Source: a virus. Taken from it: a stretch of 32,054 nucleotides of DNA. Both the position numbers and the translations under genes were made by a program. The DNA lies in IMG/VR virus record IMGVR_UViG_3300032294_000445, positions 1-32,054 of that record; one strand, 5' to 3'. Shown here one piece after another: positions 4,469 through 14,247 of this stretch (position 1 is its first letter; each line of letters opens with the position of its first letter). The notes below the pieces were generated by a model, which ran no database searches, had not been told where the DNA came from, and worked only from the letters and a program-made list of their open reading frames with translations.

Positions 4469-5230
4469 TTACGACTTTTGAATATATGCCAAAGCATAAT
4501 ATGGAGGAATATTTGCACCAGTTCCGCTTACACCAGCAGAAGCGTTTGAAACGCTAATACTTGTTCCTGATGATTGCGTTCCTGAGCTAATACTTCCAGC
4601 AGGGCCTGTACCCTCACCCAAAGTTGCGCCACCCAAATTTCCTTGATTGCCTACAAAAGCAACACTTGCTCCATTAACATCAAGCCTATATGCGTGTTGA
4701 TGCCCAGGATCTGTAACAGTTGCAGCATGAGTATGGCTTACAACAACAGCATCAGCAGTTCCGCCAGTAGCATTTACAGCATAAGAATTACCAGCGCCAA
4801 TAATGAAACGATCTCTTAAATCAGGAGTTCCGTTTGTTCCATCGCAAAGTAAATATCCGCTAGGAATAGATCCTGTTGATCCTGACCATAACAAAATTAC
4901 ACCTGATGGAACTACTGGGGATGAAGAAGGGGCATTTTGCAATATTGGGTAAATATTGTCTAAAGTTTGAATTAAAACTGCATCAGAATTTTGAAGAACA
5001 AACTTGTAAGAAAAGCCAGTTAATAACCAAATTTGTTGAGGAATTCTGCCTGAAGCATCTAAAACAATAGGATTAGGATTTGCTATGTTTCCGCTATTGG
5101 TTGTATAAGTTACTAGTGGAGTGGAAGATCCTGCTTGATATGTATAAATCAAGCCTCCAGCTAAAGGAACTCCATTGTCATCAAAGAATTGCTGACCTAT
5201 TCCAAATGGGGATAAAAGAACTGTTGCCAT
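4469..5230 (-). CDS. Short tail fibre with tail-collar domain
   Basis: A 253-aa virion protein. Residues 1-95 look like a beta-rich attachment domain (FGIGQQFFDDNGVPLAGG, LDASGRIPQ), similar in style to podoviral tailspike head-binding domains. Residues about 105-145 are a phage tail-collar domain (SGVILLWSGSTGSIPSGYLL, then CDGTNGTPDLRDRFIIGAG). The tip is Gly/Ser/Thr-rich and contains SHTHAA and GHQH, which recalls the metal-binding His pairs of T4 short tail fibre tips. It ends IPPYYALAYIQKS, the usual collar-fibre terminus. It probably binds a host surface receptor. It lies between the ejection proteins and the lysis genes. Confidence 0.8.
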   Translation of the reverse strand: MATVLLSPFGIGQQFFDDNGVPLAGGLIYTYQAGSSTPLVTYTTNSGNIANPNPIVLDASGRIPQQIWLLTGFSYKFVLQNSDAVLIQTLDNIYPILQNAPSSSPVVPSGVILLWSGSTGSIPSGYLLCDGTNGTPDLRDRFIIGAGNSYAVNATGGTADAVVVSHTHAATVTDPGHQHAYRLDVNGASVAFVGNQGNLGGATLGEGTGPAGSISSGTQSSGTSISVSNASAGVSGTGANIPPYYALAYIQKS

Positions 5231-5232
5231 GA

Positions 5233-7728
5233 TTATTCCTTGCCTATATCTTTAAGTTTAATTCCTGCTTTTGGAGAAAGTCTTTTTTGGGATTCCTCTT
5301 GAGCTGCTTTTGCTGCTGCTTCAGCCTCTCTTTTAGCTTTCATTCCGCCAAAAGTGCTTCTTAAAATTGTTCCGCCAAAAGGAACTTTCATGTTAATTGC
5401 CGATTCTGTAAGTCCAGCAGCTATATTAGAAGCAGTTTCTTTTGCAGCTCTAGCAGCGTTTTCTTGTCTAAGAACTTCTGTATTTGAAACATTAACAGAA
5501 TGAACACCTTTTCTAGGCTCGCTTAAATTTGCCACATCAGCCAAATCTTGCAAATCTTTAGCAATCGTATTGCCAAACATTACTGGCAAATTGGATTGGT
5601 TTTGATGATAAATAATTTTATTTAAAGCTGCCTGATTTACAGTTCCTGAATCATTTTTTATTCCTGAGCTTAATTTAAATTCGTCAAGTTTTAACTTATT
5701 TAAAGCCTGATGCTCAGGAGAATTTCTGCCAATTAAATCCAACATTCTTTCAATGTTTACTTGTGGAGTTTTTGCAGCGTAATGATTAGCCAAAAAATTA
5801 TTGGCAGCAGGATGGGGAACTCCAGCCTCTATTTCGTCTAAAGTTCTATTGTCTGATATAGCAGCTTTATAAGCTGGATTCTTTTCTTTTGCTTTTAATG
5901 CAGCAACGGCTTTTCTAGCCTCATCATATAAAGGCTTATATTGAGCAAATTCGTCTTTAATTGGCACTTGCTCTAATTTTTCTCTAATAATACTTGCTGC
6001 TTGGGCTTCTAAAGGATCTTTTGAAGTTCTTGCAATGGTAGCTGTATCAGTTCTAAAGTTTTCATATTGTTCAGGTGTCATAAACCCTTGAGCCAATACT
6101 TCATCTAAATCAGCCTGTAGCCTTGCAGGAACATACCTAGTTCTTTGTTTTTCTTTAAGGCCGTTGATAATGTTTTCTCTTAATGCCCCAATATCTATAG
6201 GCGCTTGTGATCCGCCAGCAGCTCTATTGGCTTTATCGTACAAAGTTCTAATATTGGCTTGTTCACTAATGTAATCATTTTTCATTCTATCCAATGGCAT
6301 TGAGGCCAATCGAATAGGATCATTTTCAAAAACATCAGGAGATAAATCTTCTTTGATTCTATTAAAGCCTTGAATTAACTTAGGATCTCGCTCCTCAAAC
6401 CTGGCTTGCAAGTTTGGATCTGTTTTTCTAGCATTAAATTCATTAGACATTAAAGAAGAATTTTGCAATGCCTGACCTTCAGTCGGAACTAAGCCAAATT
6501 TAGCAAATTTATTATGGTTTTCAATAACTTTAAGATTTTCTTCTGTTGCCAATTTATTAACAGGAGTATCTTTTAATGACTGTTTTAAATAATCAGGTGC
6601 TTCATTTAATGCAGTTTGAACTCTATTTTGTAGGTCTGTTTCAGCAGCGCCAACTCCAACCATAGGCTGTTTTTGACCAGCAACAGGAGCTTCTTCAATT
6701 TTAGGAAAGCGTTTTTCAAGTTGTGCCTGTAATTTAGGCAATGCTTGTGTAGCGCTTGGCAATTTAGCTCCAACACCAGTTGAAATTGTTTCAAGCATAT
6801 TCTGAACATCTTCTTTTGGTATGCCTGTTTTCCTAGAAATAGCTTCTGCGCTTTCTCCAACAAATTGACCAACAATTTCCATTGCCCTGCGACTAGCCTC
6901 GCCCTTATATTCAGGGGTTTCAGTAATGCCCAAAGATTTACCAAATGGCTGAGAAATAGGCTCAGTAATGCTTTGAGTAAGTTTTGTGGCTTGTTCAGGG
7001 CTTTGTCCTAATGCTCTTGCTACAGGGTATGTAACAGTACCTACAACCCCTGGCACTATGCCAGTAAGTGTGTCGGCTAATGAAGCAACTGGAGCAATCG
7101 CTTGCTTTCCTGCCTCCCTTGCTCTTTTAGAGCGCTCCTCAAACTTTTCATAAAAACCCTTGCTACTGTCTGCCATGCCTTCAGCTCTGCCAAATAGCTT
7201 TGGTTTTAATGCTGTAGGTTGCTGACCCTCTACAGCAGAAGGCTGCGCTTGACCACCCATTATAAAACTAGCAAATGGATCGGATTGATCCTGCGCTTTT
7301 GTTTGAACTGCGGATTTGCTGCCAAAAATATTTTTACCGCCCTTTTCCATCAAAATCATAGGGCCTGAAATTACATGGCGAACAGCAGGATTTGTAAGAT
7401 CAATTTCTTGATTTGGATCAAGGCCAGTTCTCTGTGCTACAAACTTAATATAATTTTCAGTATCGTTTTCTGAGGCAGGAGCATATCGAGAAATAACACC
7501 TCTTAAAGTGTTAATTTTGTGTTTAGTGCCATAGACCTCTAAATTTTTGTCCATAGCCCTAATGCCTTCTTCATAGCTGGCTGGCTGTTGAAATCCTGTG
7601 GATTGTCCTACTGGTCTTAAATTACCAACATTGAATTGATTTGTGCCAGTAGGATTTGCTGGAGCAGGAGGGGCTTTTGGACTAGCTTTTGGTTGTCCTC
7701 CCATTAAGAATTGACCAAAATCATCCAT
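5233..7728 (-). CDS. Large ejection/internal virion protein (831 aa)
   Basis: The last and largest of three consecutive genes in the position of the P22 ejection proteins (gp7, gp20, gp16). Residues about 40-125 contain a conserved phage module: a G-I-R-A-M-D-K-N-L segment, then TLRGVISRYAPASENDTENY and GLDPNQEIDL. This module recurs in large internal proteins of podoviruses and is sometimes suspected of cell-wall activity; I see no catalytic proof. The rest is a long helical, Ala/Lys/Gln-rich protein with Ala-rich stretches near residues 200-240. Its ATG overlaps the upstream stop by one base. It probably enters the cell envelope with the DNA. Confidence 0.75.
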   Translation of the reverse strand: MDDFGQFLMGGQPKASPKAPPAPANPTGTNQFNVGNLRPVGQSTGFQQPASYEEGIRAMDKNLEVYGTKHKINTLRGVISRYAPASENDTENYIKFVAQRTGLDPNQEIDLTNPAVRHVISGPMILMEKGGKNIFGSKSAVQTKAQDQSDPFASFIMGGQAQPSAVEGQQPTALKPKLFGRAEGMADSSKGFYEKFEERSKRAREAGKQAIAPVASLADTLTGIVPGVVGTVTYPVARALGQSPEQATKLTQSITEPISQPFGKSLGITETPEYKGEASRRAMEIVGQFVGESAEAISRKTGIPKEDVQNMLETISTGVGAKLPSATQALPKLQAQLEKRFPKIEEAPVAGQKQPMVGVGAAETDLQNRVQTALNEAPDYLKQSLKDTPVNKLATEENLKVIENHNKFAKFGLVPTEGQALQNSSLMSNEFNARKTDPNLQARFEERDPKLIQGFNRIKEDLSPDVFENDPIRLASMPLDRMKNDYISEQANIRTLYDKANRAAGGSQAPIDIGALRENIINGLKEKQRTRYVPARLQADLDEVLAQGFMTPEQYENFRTDTATIARTSKDPLEAQAASIIREKLEQVPIKDEFAQYKPLYDEARKAVAALKAKEKNPAYKAAISDNRTLDEIEAGVPHPAANNFLANHYAAKTPQVNIERMLDLIGRNSPEHQALNKLKLDEFKLSSGIKNDSGTVNQAALNKIIYHQNQSNLPVMFGNTIAKDLQDLADVANLSEPRKGVHSVNVSNTEVLRQENAARAAKETASNIAAGLTESAINMKVPFGGTILRSTFGGMKAKREAEAAAKAAQEESQKRLSPKAGIKLKDIGKE

Positions 7729-9059
7729 TACAAAGTTCCAGTTTTTGTTAATTTCTGAATGTTATTCCATTTTTCATTAAAAATCTGTATTTGCTTTTTA
7801 TCTTTTCCAATTAACTCATCTCTTGCCTTAGCTTTTTGCTCAGGAGTCATAGATTTATCATCAAATATGCTTTTAAGTTGGAAAATCTGTGGATCAGCAT
7901 TGCTAGACCACATTTGATTAAATGCGCTAATATTTTGATCTCCAAATCTATCCGCAAACTTTTTAATTGCTGTTGCTTTTAAATCAAGATTTGTCATATC
8001 AGCTTGAGTTCTACGAGCAATTTCAACCAATATTTTTGGCGGATAGGTTACATCACCATTAGCCATTGCAACTAATTGCTTGCCAGCATCGGTAGCCAAT
8101 GAACCGCCTGAAGCCGTAATATTAGCAATCTGAGCATTAGCCAAATCTTTAGAAAGTTCTTTATATCGAACTCCTTGCTCAGTTCCCAAAAATGTAGAAA
8201 GATTTCTTTCAATAACACCGCCAACACCAGCAGTCGGTAAAGTGGCTTCTTTTTCAAGTTCTTGAGCTTTTTTAATTACTTCATTCATTGTTCTTTGAGC
8301 TTGCGGAATTTCATTTTGCCGAGCAATCAAAGCAGATTTAGCAGCAGTTCCCATTTTGCGCTCATCTTCTTCCTGTGGTAGGGCTGTAAATGCTTGACCA
8401 GCTTGCCTTACAGGATAAGACAATGGAACAGGCTTGCTAAAGTCTGATCTTTGAGGCTGGCCCATTTGTTCAGCAGTTACACCAGTAGGAGCAGGAGCGC
8501 CAGCAGGAGCAGAAGGCTGTCCGCCAGGCACAAATCCACCTTCAGCACTTGCAGGAGAAGGCTGATAAGACTGTGGTAACTGAGAAGGAAGAATACCGCC
8601 TGGGTACATTTTTTCAAGCTGAGATTGAGCGCCTAAAGTTTTAGCCAAATTAGTAGCCAAATAAGCCCTTAACTCGGAAGGAGTTCCATTCTTAGGGATT
8701 CCTGCCAAGGCTTGATCTAATGCTACTTTAGGAGTTCCTATTCTTGTAGCTTGTTCATTAGCTGCTTTAACAATGTCATCAGCAGTTAAATCAGGTTTTG
8801 TAAGCAAAGTTTGTTGATTTTGAATAATGCTTTGAATATGCTTGTATGTATTTTCTAATTGCGTTGTATCAGCTTGCAAAGTAGCAGTTTTGGCTTGTGC
8901 TTGTGCTTGCTCAATTTGAGATGGCAATAAAGTTTTTTCTCTTTGGAAAGCAAGGTTTGTCCTACCAAGACTAACTAAGTCTTGCAATGGCATGGCTTGT
9001 TGAGCAGGAGGCTGATTAGCATAAATGCTTGGATCAGCTAATTGGCTAATTGCTGGCAT
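7728..9059 (-). CDS. Internal virion/ejection protein (443 aa)
   Basis: Middle gene of the ejection block. The N-terminal third is a Gln/Ala/Thr-rich helical region (LLPSQIEQAQAQAKTATLQA). Residues about 160-215 are Pro/Gly/Ala-rich and probably flexible, and the rest is helical. No catalytic motif is seen. Size and position resemble P22 gp20, but I cannot claim sequence homology. The composition, many Gln/Ala and no cysteines, is typical of proteins that unfold and refold on ejection. It starts 1 base after the upstream gene stops and overlaps the downstream ATG as TAATG. Confidence 0.7.
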   Translation of the reverse strand: MPAISQLADPSIYANQPPAQQAMPLQDLVSLGRTNLAFQREKTLLPSQIEQAQAQAKTATLQADTTQLENTYKHIQSIIQNQQTLLTKPDLTADDIVKAANEQATRIGTPKVALDQALAGIPKNGTPSELRAYLATNLAKTLGAQSQLEKMYPGGILPSQLPQSYQPSPASAEGGFVPGGQPSAPAGAPAPTGVTAEQMGQPQRSDFSKPVPLSYPVRQAGQAFTALPQEEDERKMGTAAKSALIARQNEIPQAQRTMNEVIKKAQELEKEATLPTAGVGGVIERNLSTFLGTEQGVRYKELSKDLANAQIANITASGGSLATDAGKQLVAMANGDVTYPPKILVEIARRTQADMTNLDLKATAIKKFADRFGDQNISAFNQMWSSNADPQIFQLKSIFDDKSMTPEQKAKARDELIGKDKKQIQIFNEKWNNIQKLTKTGTL

Positions 9060-9060
9060 A

Positions 9061-9828
9061 TTATGTCCTTATATTTAAAGTGCTTAAATTTCCGCCTGTT
9101 TCAGTAGGCCCAACTGGATTGTTATAAGTGTAGCCAGTTGATTGATTTCCGCTTATGCCCATATTTTGATATGGATTCTGCGCTTGATTCATGCCATAGT
9201 AAGAAGCAGCATTAGTAACACCGCCAATAGCGTTTGTGTACGCATTACCCTGTGCAATTTGTGATGCAGCCTGAGCGTTACCTAAGCCACTAGAAATGTT
9301 TGCAACATTAGTGCCAGTTCCAATCATTGCATTAGCTTGACCTGTTGTTGCAGTCAAGCCCATATCCGCAATACCTTTTAATTGGTTGTAAATATTAGTT
9401 CTTTGCGCTTGAAATTGATTAAAAGCAGTTCCGTATTCGCCTGAAGCAAAGTTTTGCGTATAGTCTTGAAGGCTACGCAAAGCATTTCCACTCACAGCGC
9501 CACCAGTTAAATTAGTGGCTTGTAAGTTAGCTTTTTGTCCTTGACCCAATCTAAATGCATATCCTGGCGATAAATTTGCATTTAAATCGGCATTTGTAAA
9601 CTGTCTAGAAAAATAAGGATCATCGGCTAATTTATTAAGATTTGTAACTCCTTTAGCAACATAAGGGGCATAAAAATCAACTGCCTTTTCGCCAGTTTCT
9701 AATAACTGTCCTTGCGCTCTAGCAGCAGCATCCGCTTGAGTCTTTGCAGCACTTTTAGCTGCTTGACCTTGTAAGTAGCCACCAGCTACCGATCCTACTA
9801 CTACCGCACCAGCTACCCATCCTGACAT
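9061..9828 (-). CDS. gp7-like DNA-transfer/ejection protein (255 aa)
   Basis: First of the three ejection-type genes. It begins MSGWVAGAVVVGSVAGGYLQ, a Gly/Val-rich hydrophobic segment, then an Ala/Gln helix (KSAAKTQADAAARAQG), then conserved-looking GYAFRLGQGQKANLQA and the patch SGNALRSLQDYTQNFASGEY. The C-terminal third is Asn/Gly/Ala-rich and low in complexity. This pattern recurs in many podoviral internal virion proteins near the P22 gp7 position. It overlaps the SET-domain gene by 16 bases, so the two are translated together. Confidence 0.75.
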   Translation of the reverse strand: MSGWVAGAVVVGSVAGGYLQGQAAKSAAKTQADAAARAQGQLLETGEKAVDFYAPYVAKGVTNLNKLADDPYFSRQFTNADLNANLSPGYAFRLGQGQKANLQATNLTGGAVSGNALRSLQDYTQNFASGEYGTAFNQFQAQRTNIYNQLKGIADMGLTATTGQANAMIGTGTNVANISSGLGNAQAASQIAQGNAYTNAIGGVTNAASYYGMNQAQNPYQNMGISGNQSTGYTYNNPVGPTETGGNLSTLNIRT

Positions 9829-10676
9829 GGTAACTCCCCCATTATATTAAGACCAAAATTAACCCTCATTGATGCCCTGTAATCAACCAGCAATTCTTCA
9901 TTTGCATGAATTTTGCGAGTTGCTACTGCATAAATGTCATTTCCCACTAGTTGCGGAAGAAGATTGCTTTCAAATGAATGGTTAATAAATCTTCCAGCAG
10001 GAGTTCTTTTTCCATCCAATCTACCAGGGCAAATTATTTCCCCAACTTCAAAATCTTTTAACGCAAACATACCCAAACCATGAATCTTAGACTTCCTGAT
10101 TTCTACAGCATATCCTTCAGGCATTTCCATAAGATCGGATTCAATAGTTACTATTTTATCCATTTCTTCTTGATTTATCCCTATTTGGGATAAAAAAAGA
10201 CTGTAATCATTTTGAGCGTTTTTAATCTGTAGAGCAACTCTATTCTCGCCAAGTCCACATTCAGGAACTACATAAAGGCGATCTTCAAGAATTGCTAAAT
10301 CTTGGCAGTTATCAGGATTATCATAAATATCCTTCCAAACTACTTCTTCATCAAAAACCCTGCCAACTCGCTGCTCTCCTGCTTTAGCTTCCAAATCAAA
10401 TGGAGCAGTCAAAATCTTGACTTCAGTTCCCACATTTACGGCAATAGTGCCTTTTTCAAGCCTAATCTTGTAATCCGTTTTATGAGCAGCTCCAGTTAAT
10501 ACAGTCCAAGGAGGAATGGTAATAACTCGCTCATATACTCCATCAGCAAAGATATGCTCTGTAACAATCTCAGATTGAGGCATTTTTAAAAGCTCATCCT
10601 GCAAATTCTCTATTTGCGCCTTTTGAATATTGGCGCTTAGAGCATTGGAGGATAGGCTTTCAACAATTTGATTCAT
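9813..10676 (-). CDS. Cupin-like/SET-domain fusion protein (putative lysine methyltransferase) in the virion cassette
   Basis: A 287-aa two-part protein. Residues about 40-118 form a cupin-like beta barrel candidate (IPPWTVLTGAAHKTDYKIRL, EKGTIAVNVG) with H65 and E74 as possible remnants of cupin metal ligands. Residues 191-266 are a SET domain: RKSKIHGLGMFALKDFEVG (194-212), the cofactor/active-site motif RFINHS (229-234), and ELLVDY (261-266) after DIYAVATRKIHANE. These motifs bind S-adenosylmethionine and hold the catalytic Tyr in lysine methyltransferases. There is no post-SET Cys cluster. It overlaps both neighbours (4 and 16 bases) between neck and ejection genes, so it may act on, or be part of, the virion. 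Substrate unknown. Confidence 0.85.
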   Translation of the reverse strand: MNQIVESLSSNALSANIQKAQIENLQDELLKMPQSEIVTEHIFADGVYERVITIPPWTVLTGAAHKTDYKIRLEKGTIAVNVGTEVKILTAPFDLEAKAGEQRVGRVFDEEVVWKDIYDNPDNCQDLAILEDRLYVVPECGLGENRVALQIKNAQNDYSLFLSQIGINQEEMDKIVTIESDLMEMPEGYAVEIRKSKIHGLGMFALKDFEVGEIICPGRLDGKRTPAGRFINHSFESNLLPQLVGNDIYAVATRKIHANEELLVDYRASMRVNFGLNIMGELPCQDG

Positions 10677-10912
10677 AGGTTGTAGTAAGGAACTTTAACA
10701 ATTTTGCCGTTTACTGTAACTTCAATAAATCCGACAGGATTTGGAGGCAAAACAGCCCCTCCTGGGGTTGCTGATGGTGCTGTTCTAGTAAAATTAAGCA
10801 GATTTGAAAAGAATATTTGCCATGCCCTAGTAGGTCTTTTGGTCTGCTCATCCATAAATTCAGTCTGTGGATAAGGATTGTCTTGGCTTGGCCCCCATAT
10901 TTGATTAGCCAT
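10673..10912 (-). CDS. Small conserved-type virion-region protein (79 aa)
   Basis: Starts MANQIWGPSQDNPYPQTEF, then FMDEQTKRPTRAWQIFFSNL (about 19-38), a Pro/Ala linker, and a C-terminal strand GFIEVTVNGKIVKVPYYNL. Similar small proteins (FxD...RAWxxFF...) often lie near podoviral neck and ejection genes. A beta-strand end with an aromatic terminus suits a minor structural or adaptor subunit. Its ATG overlaps the gp10-like stop as TAATG, and its own stop overlaps the SET gene by 4 bases. Role unproven. Confidence 0.65.
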   Translation of the reverse strand: MANQIWGPSQDNPYPQTEFMDEQTKRPTRAWQIFFSNLLNFTRTAPSATPGGAVLPPNPVGFIEVTVNGKIVKVPYYNL

Positions 10913-13041
10913 TAGTTTTCCCCAACCGATGCTTTAAGGTTAGCCGAAATAATTACTGCTTTGACTGGATCGGTAACAACTACTTCATAAATACGATCCC
11001 TTGCTTGACCCAATCTGCGCCAAATAATACGATTTTGGTACTTGCCAACCTTGCCAATACCAGCCCAATGTTCATTTGACCAAGTAGAACCGCCATCATT
11101 AGACCAACGGAGCATGGCTTGAGGGTTAATACCTATGTCGTTATCGCCTAATGGGAAGGTTTCAATGCCTTGCAATCCAACCCCAGGCTGAAACTGGATT
11201 TGCAATTCATCAAAATATTGGCGCTGAAAGTCTGCAACTAAATGGGGGCATCTACGCATCCTGCGAATATGTTGCCCATTATCGGTATAGTTGTTAGGAT
11301 CTAATCTGTAGATTTGACCATTTTCATAATCCCCAACCAATACTTGCCCTTGAAAAAAAGCTGAACAATTAGAGCGATGGCGCTTGTAATTGTTTTGATT
11401 GTCGCACCATAGCCATTTATGCCACATTTGGGTAGATCCGTCATATACCCAAGTTAATTCTAGGCTGGGGAAAGTAACTACATAGCACTCATGCCCCTCA
11501 AGTTGATAAGTATAGGCTACTGCATCGCTAATATTTTGATTAACAAGAGTATTTTCTACAGCATGGGTTGAGATGCGCTGTGGGAAATAGCCATTCATTT
11601 GCACAACAACTGCTTGACCACGATCATTTCTTGAAACATAGGCAAAAGAATTACCAAATCGAGCCATACTAAATTCGGCAGCTATTCCATGTTGGCTAGA
11701 TGCGCCAGGAATCCTTTGAAATGGGAATGGGAAAGTTCCTACATCCGCCCAAACTTCAGAAGTCTTTTCGCCCAATAAATAGATTTGACCATGATCCACA
11801 ATTAAAGAAACAAGGTCATCAGGGCCTGTAAATTTAGATGCAAAAGCTAATCCATAGGTAATGGGAGATAACAGATCAGAAGATGCATATTGTTGGGTAT
11901 GAGGTCTGTTATAGACAAAATAGTTATCCACTACATCAACGGAAGAAGCTCCTGTAAATGCTCCGTCTGTAGCTGGTAATACGCTAAAGTTCAAAGCATA
12001 CATAGTCCTAGAGCTAACAGTTTGACTATTATTGATAACATAATTGCCAGTATTTCCAGTTCCTGTTCCAAAGGTCAAAGTAAGGGTTAGCCCTGATCCT
12101 GATCCATCTGAAACAGTAGAAACATTATTAGAAGGAACAGAAGTATATTGCCCTGAAAAAGTCCTTGTAAGCCCTGTAACAGCTCCTGAACCGCCAATAG
12201 AGGTAACTGTATAAGTGGCTGGACTTGAACCAAAAACACCGCCCAAAACAGTAATATTTTCATTAACTGAATAGCCTGTTCCTCCAGCAACAATGGATTC
12301 ACTAAGAACAGTTCCGCTACCTAAAGCAGTAATAATTGTTTTTGGGGTTACTGTAGATCCTGTAATGGTTTGACCAACAAACAAAGTTCCACTAGCTACA
12401 GCCGTTACAGTTAAGGTAGTTGATGCCATAGAAGCTGTTATTACGGCAGCTACTGTTGCTGTATTCATGCGAATAACAGTTCCAACAGTATTGGCTTGAT
12501 TTAAAGTCCAAGTGCTTCCTGATCCGCTAACGATAACAGTTTCATTAGAAACCCCAATTCCAAACAAAGATTGATTTGCAACAATCGTTCCTGAAATAAC
12601 TCTAGTTACAGTTAATGTTGTTCCGCTAATTGTGCCTTCAAAAACAGCAGAATTTGGATTAGAAATGCGCCAAGTGTAGCGATTTGCCCCATCTACGATA
12701 TAGACATTTAATCCATTGTCTGTAATTCCAACTTGACCAGTTGAAGTGTCTAATTGACCAATAATGGTTGCTGTAAAGTCTGAACCCATAACATAGACAT
12801 AAGGGCCACACACCACAACAAGGTAATCTTGACCTGAAATCGCTCTCATTCCTCTAACTGATTGAGCAGTTTGAAGTGTTACGACATTGGTTAAGCCTGG
12901 AGTTGGATATAGCGCAACTACTCCTCTAGACCCTGGGGGCTTAGTAGGATCAATTTCAGGTCTAAAGTTTATGCACTCCTGAGCATTTTGATAAATACTC
13001 GGAGCTTCATAAGCCGAACCAACAAAGCCAAAATCAGCCAT
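10912..13041 (-). CDS. P22 gp10-like packaged-DNA stabilization (tail hub) protein with a large insertion
   Basis: A 709-aa adaptor resembling P22 gp10, the hub closing the portal channel (about 470 aa in P22). The start FGFVGSAYEAPSIYQNAQEC then INFRPE, and the later blocks (VDNYFVYNRP, WADVGTFPFPFQRIPGASSQ, ARFGNSFAYVSRND, GQIYRLDPNNYTDNG) fit this family. The extra length is mainly residues about 130-350, a Gly/Ser/Thr/Val-rich stretch with repeated GTxLTVTxVxSGT and GTVI patterns. The same module type interrupts the gp4-like gene next door. The insertion is probably a surface-exposed beta domain on the neck or hub. Confidence 0.8.
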   Translation of the reverse strand: MADFGFVGSAYEAPSIYQNAQECINFRPEIDPTKPPGSRGVVALYPTPGLTNVVTLQTAQSVRGMRAISGQDYLVVVCGPYVYVMGSDFTATIIGQLDTSTGQVGITDNGLNVYIVDGANRYTWRISNPNSAVFEGTISGTTLTVTRVISGTIVANQSLFGIGVSNETVIVSGSGSTWTLNQANTVGTVIRMNTATVAAVITASMASTTLTVTAVASGTLFVGQTITGSTVTPKTIITALGSGTVLSESIVAGGTGYSVNENITVLGGVFGSSPATYTVTSIGGSGAVTGLTRTFSGQYTSVPSNNVSTVSDGSGSGLTLTLTFGTGTGNTGNYVINNSQTVSSRTMYALNFSVLPATDGAFTGASSVDVVDNYFVYNRPHTQQYASSDLLSPITYGLAFASKFTGPDDLVSLIVDHGQIYLLGEKTSEVWADVGTFPFPFQRIPGASSQHGIAAEFSMARFGNSFAYVSRNDRGQAVVVQMNGYFPQRISTHAVENTLVNQNISDAVAYTYQLEGHECYVVTFPSLELTWVYDGSTQMWHKWLWCDNQNNYKRHRSNCSAFFQGQVLVGDYENGQIYRLDPNNYTDNGQHIRRMRRCPHLVADFQRQYFDELQIQFQPGVGLQGIETFPLGDNDIGINPQAMLRWSNDGGSTWSNEHWAGIGKVGKYQNRIIWRRLGQARDRIYEVVVTDPVKAVIISANLKASVGEN

Positions 13042-13050
13042 TTTTTAGCC

Positions 13051-14247
13051 TTATCTAAAGAATCCGCCATTGAGAATCCAGCCAGCATCTTTTTGACGGC
13101 TAGAAAGCATTGCATCAGCAAATTGAGCTGTCTGCATTGGCTTCATATTTGTGCGTTTTAAAGTTGCTTTAGCTTGAGCAGCATAAGCGTTAATCATCGT
13201 TATTTGCGTTGCAGAGGCTTTGCCATACATAGGCATCAAACGCTCTGCCAAACACCATCTAAGGCACATTGAATAGCCCTGTGGAAGCACTATATCGTCA
13301 TACATAGTTCCGTAGTTGCTAAACAGGGTTTGAGCAAATAAATGGACTTCGCCTTGTGATGGGTTAGGCCATAGAAAAATATTGCCTGATTGCTCATTTG
13401 GATTGAAATAAACAGCTTTAGGCCAAGGCCCATTTAGAGTTTTAAGTCCAATCGAGTTGTAATTGTCATATTGCAATACAGCCATTTGGTAATCTAGACC
13501 GCCATTGTAGATTGGCTGACCATTAGAGCTAGTGTTTACCCTTACATAAGCAGAATCTATGCCTAATGGTTTTTGATAGTAAGCAGTAATGGTTGAATCT
13601 ACGATTGTTCCAGTAATCGTTGTAGAGGCTACAGTTTGAGATGCGCTAACTGTATAAGTGCCAACTCCGCCTGTTCCGCTTATCAATGCAGAAATAGTTG
13701 TCCCAGCAGTAATGCCAGTTCCGCTAATTACAGAGCCAATATTGACTGCGCCTGAAGCAACAGCCGTTACAGTTAGGGTTGTCCCTGATATAGATCCTGT
13801 AAATACTGGGGTTTGAACACCTTGAACAATATTAAGCAAGTAAGTGCCTTGCTCATTTACATTACCGCCAGCACCAGTTAAATTGCGAACAATCCGAGTT
13901 CCCTGGGCAATTCCTTGACCGCTTAAATACTGCCCTTGAGCTACAGCTCCTGAGTTTATTCCAGTAACAGTAAGAACATTTCCTGAAAAAGTGCCTGTAA
14001 ATGAAGCGCCAACAAAGTTTGCCGTAGATGGATCAGGGCCTATCGTGTATTGAACTTGCCCTGCAATTACTGGAAAAATAATCTCAGTAATGTTAAAAAC
14101 CATCATATCCTCATTTGACCATTGGTCTATGAGGTCATTCATCATATCAAAAGCATCTTTAGCGGAATCGGCTGAAGGCTGTTCTCCAGCTTCTAAAGCG
14201 CCAATATCTTTTAATGCTCTTGAAATTATGTCAATCGGCTTGGTCAT
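13051..14247 (-). CDS. P22 gp4-like head-completion/tail-adaptor protein with an inserted beta module
   Basis: The N-terminus ([20 protein letters not shown] then [20 protein letters not shown]) is typical of P22 gp4-type connector proteins that bind the portal before the hub. P22 gp4 has 166 residues; this protein has 398. The extra sequence is residues about 80-220, with at least two copies of a unit like FTGxxSGxxLTVTxVxSGAV...GTxI....TGxGGxGTY. After it, the connector fold resumes ([40 protein letters not shown]) and ends [10 protein letters not shown]. Adaptor identity is good; the insertion's function is unknown. Confidence 0.8.

Follow-up and report, generated by a model that had tools for sequence, protein, structure and literature searches.

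Most known SET-type protein-lysine methyltransferases act on eukaryotic chromatin or serve intracellular bacteria as effectors. Two of their elements, the SET-I insert, which helps to form the substrate groove, and the post-SET cysteines, are common and variable and are not required of the superfamily. Our searches of the open-access literature turned up no work on a SET enzyme from a bacteriophage. In the chlorella virus PBCV-1, vSET is a virion-packaged H3K27 methyltransferase, which is thought to repress host transcription (PMC3946773, PMC7019647). Among phages, the same full-length cupin-SET architecture as the one analyzed here is catalogued, with no assigned function, as PHROG 34170, whose members (P26218 gp30 and PH1 ANY29560.1) occupy the same gene slot and are 27-32% identical to our protein; P26218 gp30 is annotated only by its similarity to a putative tail fiber protein. 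A homologous cupin without SET is represented by PHROG 12032 and PHROG 24280 (BPP-1 Bbp23, Thalassomonas BA3, Shewanella X14 and Vibrio phages). In BA3 and X14 the cupin-only gene lies in the same slot before the ejection gene, whereas in BPP-1 the Bbp23 gene is flanked by a GNAT gene on one side and virion genes on the other, unlike the arrangement described below. The genes of P22 gp14 (DUF2824) and T7 gp13 are likewise small and, as here, directly precede the gene of the first ejection protein.

The window, that is, the whole stretch of DNA analyzed, is a 32,054-base viral contig with a GC content of 41%. It carries a leftward virion block of P22 type in the order terminase, portal, scaffold, coat, gp10/Hc3, a 79-aa protein, cupin-SET, a gp7-like protein, a 443-aa protein and an 831-aa protein, and its portal matches P22_portal at 1.4e-177 in profile search. 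The original prediction had placed a SET methyltransferase fused to a cupin-like domain at 9813-10676, and this ORF proved to be real; it reads from 10676 to 9813, ATG to TAG, on the minus strand in the ORF translation of the window. The features of the gene and its neighbours are as follows.

9813-10676, minus strand: cupin-SET fusion gene (ORF of 287 aa; phrog_34170, E=2.2e-33 over residues 14-271; under purifying selection)
10269-10574, minus strand: cupin (RmlC-like) barrel, the constant part of the family (residues 35-136; AF2 model; phrog_12032 and phrog_24280 matches)
10149-10250, minus strand: helical lead-in of the SET module (residues 143-176; AF2 helices; common to the separate or stand-alone SET genes of L103, L107 and L109)
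9867-10124, minus strand: SET domain core (residues 185-270; Pfam PF00856; no SET-I insert, no post-SET cysteines)
10071-10079, minus strand: GxG (G200, G202), SAM-site glycines of SET motif I (invariant, 89/89)
9975-9983, minus strand: NHS (N232-S234), SAM/pseudoknot motif (N and H invariant, 89/89; aligned to MLL1 NHS)
9879-9881, minus strand: Y266, catalytic-type tyrosine of ELLVDY (invariant, 89/89; aligned to MLL1 GEELTYDY)
9813-9828, minus strand: overlap of the cupin-SET gene with the ejection gene start (16 nt; PCQDG in one frame, MSGW in the other)
10673-10912, minus strand: 79-aa protein in the tail-needle slot (N-terminus like the needle-like proteins of BA3 and X14, by eye)
10912-13041, minus strand: gp10-like head closure (Hc3), neck (phrog_578, 2.4e-103)
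9061-9828, minus strand: gp7-like DNA-ejection protein, the constant downstream neighbour (phrog_598, E=8e-27)
5233-9059, minus strand: two further ejection-cluster genes (by position; order as in P22 and PMC8954989)

It had also been claimed that the gene overlaps neck and ejection genes on both sides. Both overlaps exist: the gene shares 4 nt with its upstream neighbour and 16 nt with the ejection gene, but the upstream partner encodes the 79-aa protein and is not the neck gene itself. The claimed place inside the virion operon stands, with the ejection gene downstream and the neck gene (gp10/Hc3) as the second gene upstream. Because the last codons of the cupin-SET gene also encode, in another frame, the start of the ejection protein, the conservation of the C-terminal peptide PCQDG is accounted for, and its candidacy as a functional C-terminal tag was thereby ruled out. 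The 79-aa protein gave no family match in profile searches. The P22 order gp10, needle gp26, gp14, gp7, gp20, gp16 is the order found in the window, and the cupin-SET gene therefore sits in the slot of P22 gene 14; by gene order the 443-aa protein falls in the gp20 slot, while the 831-aa protein (gp16 slot) has an endolysin-type N-terminal domain and matches phrog_873/2276. The ejection trio is a known gene cluster in short-tailed phages (PMC8954989). The gp7-like ejection gene directly follows 165 of 181 cupin ORFs (duplicates included), and most fused cupin-SET copies lie in the virion block. Homology of P22 gp14 to the cupin was considered and rejected (hhalign probability 0.6%; different Pfam families), the slot alone being in common. 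By eye, both P22 gp14 and T7 gp13 look GNAT-like, and if they are, a protein-modifying enzyme beside ejection genes would be a recurring theme. Two other observations concern the neighbouring genes. The head closure protein (10912-13041) and the gp4-slot protein (13051-14247) contain inserted repeats of the same type as phrog_21413 and phrog_38233, apparently a mobile beta-rich insertion domain present in two neck proteins. The ejection-cluster proteins encoded at 5233-7728 and 7728-9059 diverge far faster than their neighbours, with identities of 34-47% and 43-75%, respectively, between phages whose coat proteins are 97% identical.

The AlphaFold model of the full protein, built on a 49-sequence alignment, had a mean pLDDT of 86.8, and its predicted N-terminal barrel matched the cupin 4e2g with a VIA Z of 12.0 and 2.9 A over 92 aligned residues; Foldseek likewise returned a cupin fold match at E 6.9e-7. 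Pfam gave no match for this half, and the support for a cupin comes from fold only. The metal-binding histidine motif HxH..E is absent from cupin residues 62-76 (GAAHKTDYKIRLEKG), and because these usual metal histidines are absent the cupin half is best read as a structural barrel and not as a canonical metal cupin. Among distant cupins no conserved blocks sufficient for an alignment scan were found. The pairwise dN/dS of the cupin half was 0.05-0.13.

The SET half matched Pfam SET with 38.6 bits (E=1.6e-9; curated cut-off 22.4 bits), as did all 49 aligned family members, and the three signatures named in the original prediction were located at GLGMFA (200-205), RFINHS (229-234) and ELLVDY (261-266). 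A PDB profile search with the family profile returned MLL1 SET at 2.8e-13 and PBCV-1 vSET at 2.1e-8. When the SET half was modelled alone, the predicted AF2 fold had a pLDDT of 88.9 and superposed on the 7u5v structure of MLL1 SET with SAH at a VIA Z of 10.5, with 78 residues aligned at 1.6 A and 37% identical. Thus SET, by Pfam and PDB profile, and cupin, by fold, are indeed joined in one protein; both halves matched in the proposed comparison of predicted structure with known SET enzymes and cupins, and the concern that the fold might lack a SAM pocket was not borne out at fold level, where the predicted core superposes on MLL1-SAH. The SET domain of MLL1/KMT2A is the best-matching solved SET core, although MLL1 has SET-I (67 residues from GxG to NHS), post-SET and partner proteins, while the phage SET has 32 residues in this interval and lacks SET-I and post-SET. 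The GxG-to-N spacing was 32 residues in all 139 family ORFs measured (139/139), and in the window protein a single Cys follows Y266, with post-SET cysteines absent. With SET-I and post-SET missing, a lysine channel would have to be completed by the cupin, by the lead-in helices or by dimerization.

Ten positions, S196, G200, G202, R224, T225, G228, N232, H233, E261 and Y266, were identical in 89 of 89 distinct SET segments, and S234 was kept in 94% of them. This invariance extends to about 30% overall identity and includes stand-alone and separate-gene forms, in which the helical lead-in also precedes SET. The pairwise dN/dS of the SET half was 0.07-0.22, which indicates purifying selection. 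Such conservation of SAM-site and catalytic-type positions is what would be expected of an enzyme, a reading well supported by the sequences. It might be argued that SET here is a catalytically dead fold which serves as a structural or protein-binding domain, as SET-I and post-SET are missing, the cupin itself appears to be a structural barrel without a metal site, and SET is frequently lost. But exactly the SAM and catalytic positions are the invariant ones and the SET half is under purifying selection, and we regard a dead fold as improbable. The invariant motifs, the low dN/dS and the superposition on MLL1-SAH argue for a working enzyme rather than a structural relic; we take the SET half to be, most likely, an accessory module with SAM-dependent protein methyltransferase activity, which would probably be directed at lysine.

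A pattern search built from the fusion recovered at least 498 confirmed cupin-SET relatives in IMG/VR, and a further 13 came from genome assemblies of bacteria and archaea. Several of these were from Burkholderiales, among them one relative, 58% identical, in a Burkholderiales MAG. Full-length relatives are carried by the cultured phages P26218 (Rhodoferax) and PH1 (Pseudoalteromonas). The whole architecture was thus found again in hundreds of viral contigs and in cultured phages, and a chance match was ruled out by these hundreds of homologues with invariant motifs. The cupin-SET protein had no defence-system match in PADLOC and no match in NCBIfam. A Paraburkholderia MAG has two distinct cupin-SET genes (L098 and L108) on the same contig, about 83 kb apart and each beside ejection-type genes; these are probably two prophages in one genome. 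Cupin and SET also occur apart. In a Paraburkholderia prophage-like region (L103) they are separate adjacent genes with a 4-nt overlap, downstream of replication genes, and stand-alone SET genes were found in L107, L109, Kolga and P-RSM6. The SET half of both L107 and L109 is a gene of its own that follows the last of the replication genes, and in L107 it lies two genes before a protein which resembles an ejection protein by eye (no PHROG match).

Cupin-only proteins of 150-190 aa are present in BPP-1, BA3, X14 and many Vibrio phages, where annotations call them 'short tail fiber', 'tail fiber adhesin', 'RmlC-like jelly roll' or 'structural'. We found no experimental basis for the fibre and jelly-roll labels, and nothing usable in the literature on BPP-1 Bbp23, on Shewanella phage X14 proteomics or on T7 gp13. 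In BPP-1 (L011 7480-8399, bbp24-bbp23) the cupin-only gene shares 4 nt with a GNAT acetyltransferase gene, and therefore a different type of protein-modifying enzyme stands beside the same cupin in that phage. Taken literally, the labels given in PHROGs ('short tail fiber', 'tail fiber adhesin') would make the fusion a tail fibre or adhesin, with an N-terminal virion anchor and a receptor-binding tip derived from SET, and indeed phrog_12032 and phrog_24280 match residues 5-118 of the fusion protein. We consider this very improbable: the N-terminus is predicted to be a cupin and not a fibre fold, the C-terminus evolves slowly and keeps its enzyme motifs invariant, unlike receptor-binding tips, a separate collar/fibre gene is present in the window at 4469-5230 (PHROG match), and the labels appear to be propagated annotation. 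From the gene order and the 'short tail fiber' labels on the cupin-only relatives, it is nevertheless plausible, as suggested originally, that the N-terminal cupin binds the virion.

Of the two halves, the cupin is constant across the family and SET is optional: among 120 distinct cupin domains, 83 had SET and 37 did not. On the cupin tree the presence of SET requires 12 changes, at least four of which are forced by well-supported branches; the figure of 12 is indicative only, because branches are short and many forks unresolved. Comparison of L117 with L003 showed a clean in-frame deletion of SET, which leaves in place the opening turns of the lead-in helix and the final residues, the latter coinciding with the start of the ejection gene. 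In another phage (L005) SET is lost and a degraded tail is left, while coat and gp7 are 97% and 84% identical to those of the window; this SET-less phage is closer to the window than is the SET-bearing L002 (gp7 84 versus 59%, gp10 93 versus 88%, terminase 95 versus 91%). Cupin and SET distances were strongly correlated (r = 0.91 overall and 0.79 in the close clade; Mantel test, 0/999 permutations), and for this reason swapping of SET modules among phages was unsupported and losses of SET probably outnumber gains. A single old fusion followed by repeated loss would fit these sequences better than repeated capture.

The original prediction, which allowed for a phage structural or a host target, had named coat, portal and ejection proteins as places to look for methyl-lysine, and we argued that if SET modified the virion, lysines in virion proteins should follow its presence. 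No conserved lysine was found in the gp7-like neighbour among 70 sequences from SET-bearing phages, and it was rejected as a substrate on this ground; its best lysine column reached 56% with SET and 45% without, in a protein of about 2% K. In gp10, in the small protein and in the cupin itself (self-methylation) no lysine was conserved only with SET, the one conserved lysine of gp10 being equally kept in phages without SET. Apparent K differences in the 443-aa protein came from 9 versus 6 sequences of single clades and were not counted as signal. A whole-genome comparison of three SET-bearing and five SET-less genomes, seven relatives of the window among them, showed no excess lysine loss in the SET-less phages (K 4.3%, other residues 1.4-8.7%). 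These lysine tests, over the neighbouring genes and the whole-genome set, are of low power, as the genomes are few and substrate sites need not be conserved. Methylation of a coat, portal or ejection protein is so far unsupported, since the gp7-like protein lacks a conserved lysine and the comparison of phages with and without SET gave no lysine-specific signal.

A role as virion modifier, in which the cupin would place SET to methylate lysines on an ejection, neck or coat protein late in assembly and thereby tune ejection or evade host sensing, is a possible reading that rests on gene position: the gene has needle/neck genes on one side and ejection genes on the other and overlaps the adjacent gene at each end, the ejection gene is its constant downstream partner, and virion-type labels ('short tail fiber', 'structural') are found on cupin-only relatives. 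Against it stand the lysine results for the gp7-like protein and gp10, the loss of SET in a phage with nearly the same coat and a closely similar gp7, and the stand-alone SET genes, some of which come last in replication blocks, and we regard it as rather unlikely, though less so than a dead fold. Because SET was lost repeatedly with virion proteins unchanged, and no virion lysine tracks SET, a host protein would be a likelier target than a conserved virion site; taken together, the lysine tests, the easy loss and the stand-alone SET genes outside the virion block mildly favour a host or non-conserved target.

Our preferred explanation, to which we give about an even chance, is a late cupin protein with an optional minimal SET methyltransferase whose target would more likely be in the host than in the virion. 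The cupin part would do a job common to all relatives, probably in late assembly or in a virion-associated role beside the ejection proteins, and the SET part would be an accessory effector, produced together with the cupin and kept in place by it. The target protein would be modified in the host, late in infection, or on entry if cupin-SET travels with the ejection proteins. The case for a host target depends chiefly on the missing virion signal, and the virion-block location of most fused copies would equally suit a virion target.

These proteins form a large, strongly conserved SET family in bacterial viruses, unusual in its core without SET-I and in being joined to a conserved late protein encoded in the ejection operon. 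The repeated natural losses of SET offer ready-made comparisons, and since cultured phages with known hosts (P26218 and PH1) carry the gene, substrate and function are directly testable. A related minimal form is PHROG 28741 (P-RSM6 CPXG_00131 and Pelagibacter phage Kolga gp27), with the same RTPxGxxxNHS and a similarly short GxG-to-NHS spacing of 36-37; its proteins are of about 100 aa, have no cupin and belong to other phage types. CPXG_00131 (L111 2974-3273) is a 99-aa stand-alone SET without SET-I, directly upstream of baseplate genes (gp25-like, wedge), and the T4-like cyanophage P-RSM6 is a second phage type with a mini-SET in the virion block. PBCV-1 vSET (1n3j, 3kma) is a minimal viral SET without post-SET, as here, with a match in sequence and fold, but it belongs to a eukaryotic virus, acts on a histone and has no cupin, whereas here GxG and NHS are 32 residues apart and there is no histone target. 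By analogy, and not by membership, vSET, virion-packaged and used on the host, may serve as the closest working model for cupin-SET. More speculatively, and with only tentative confidence, short-tailed phages may carry a SET-I-less methyltransferase on a cupin with the ejection machinery, either bring it into the bacterium or use it there, and so methylate a host protein, as a counterpart of vSET which was gained early and is lost again and again as hosts change. What is new relative to the known systems is a phage SET whose core is unusually reduced, joined to a conserved late cupin and repeatedly lost.
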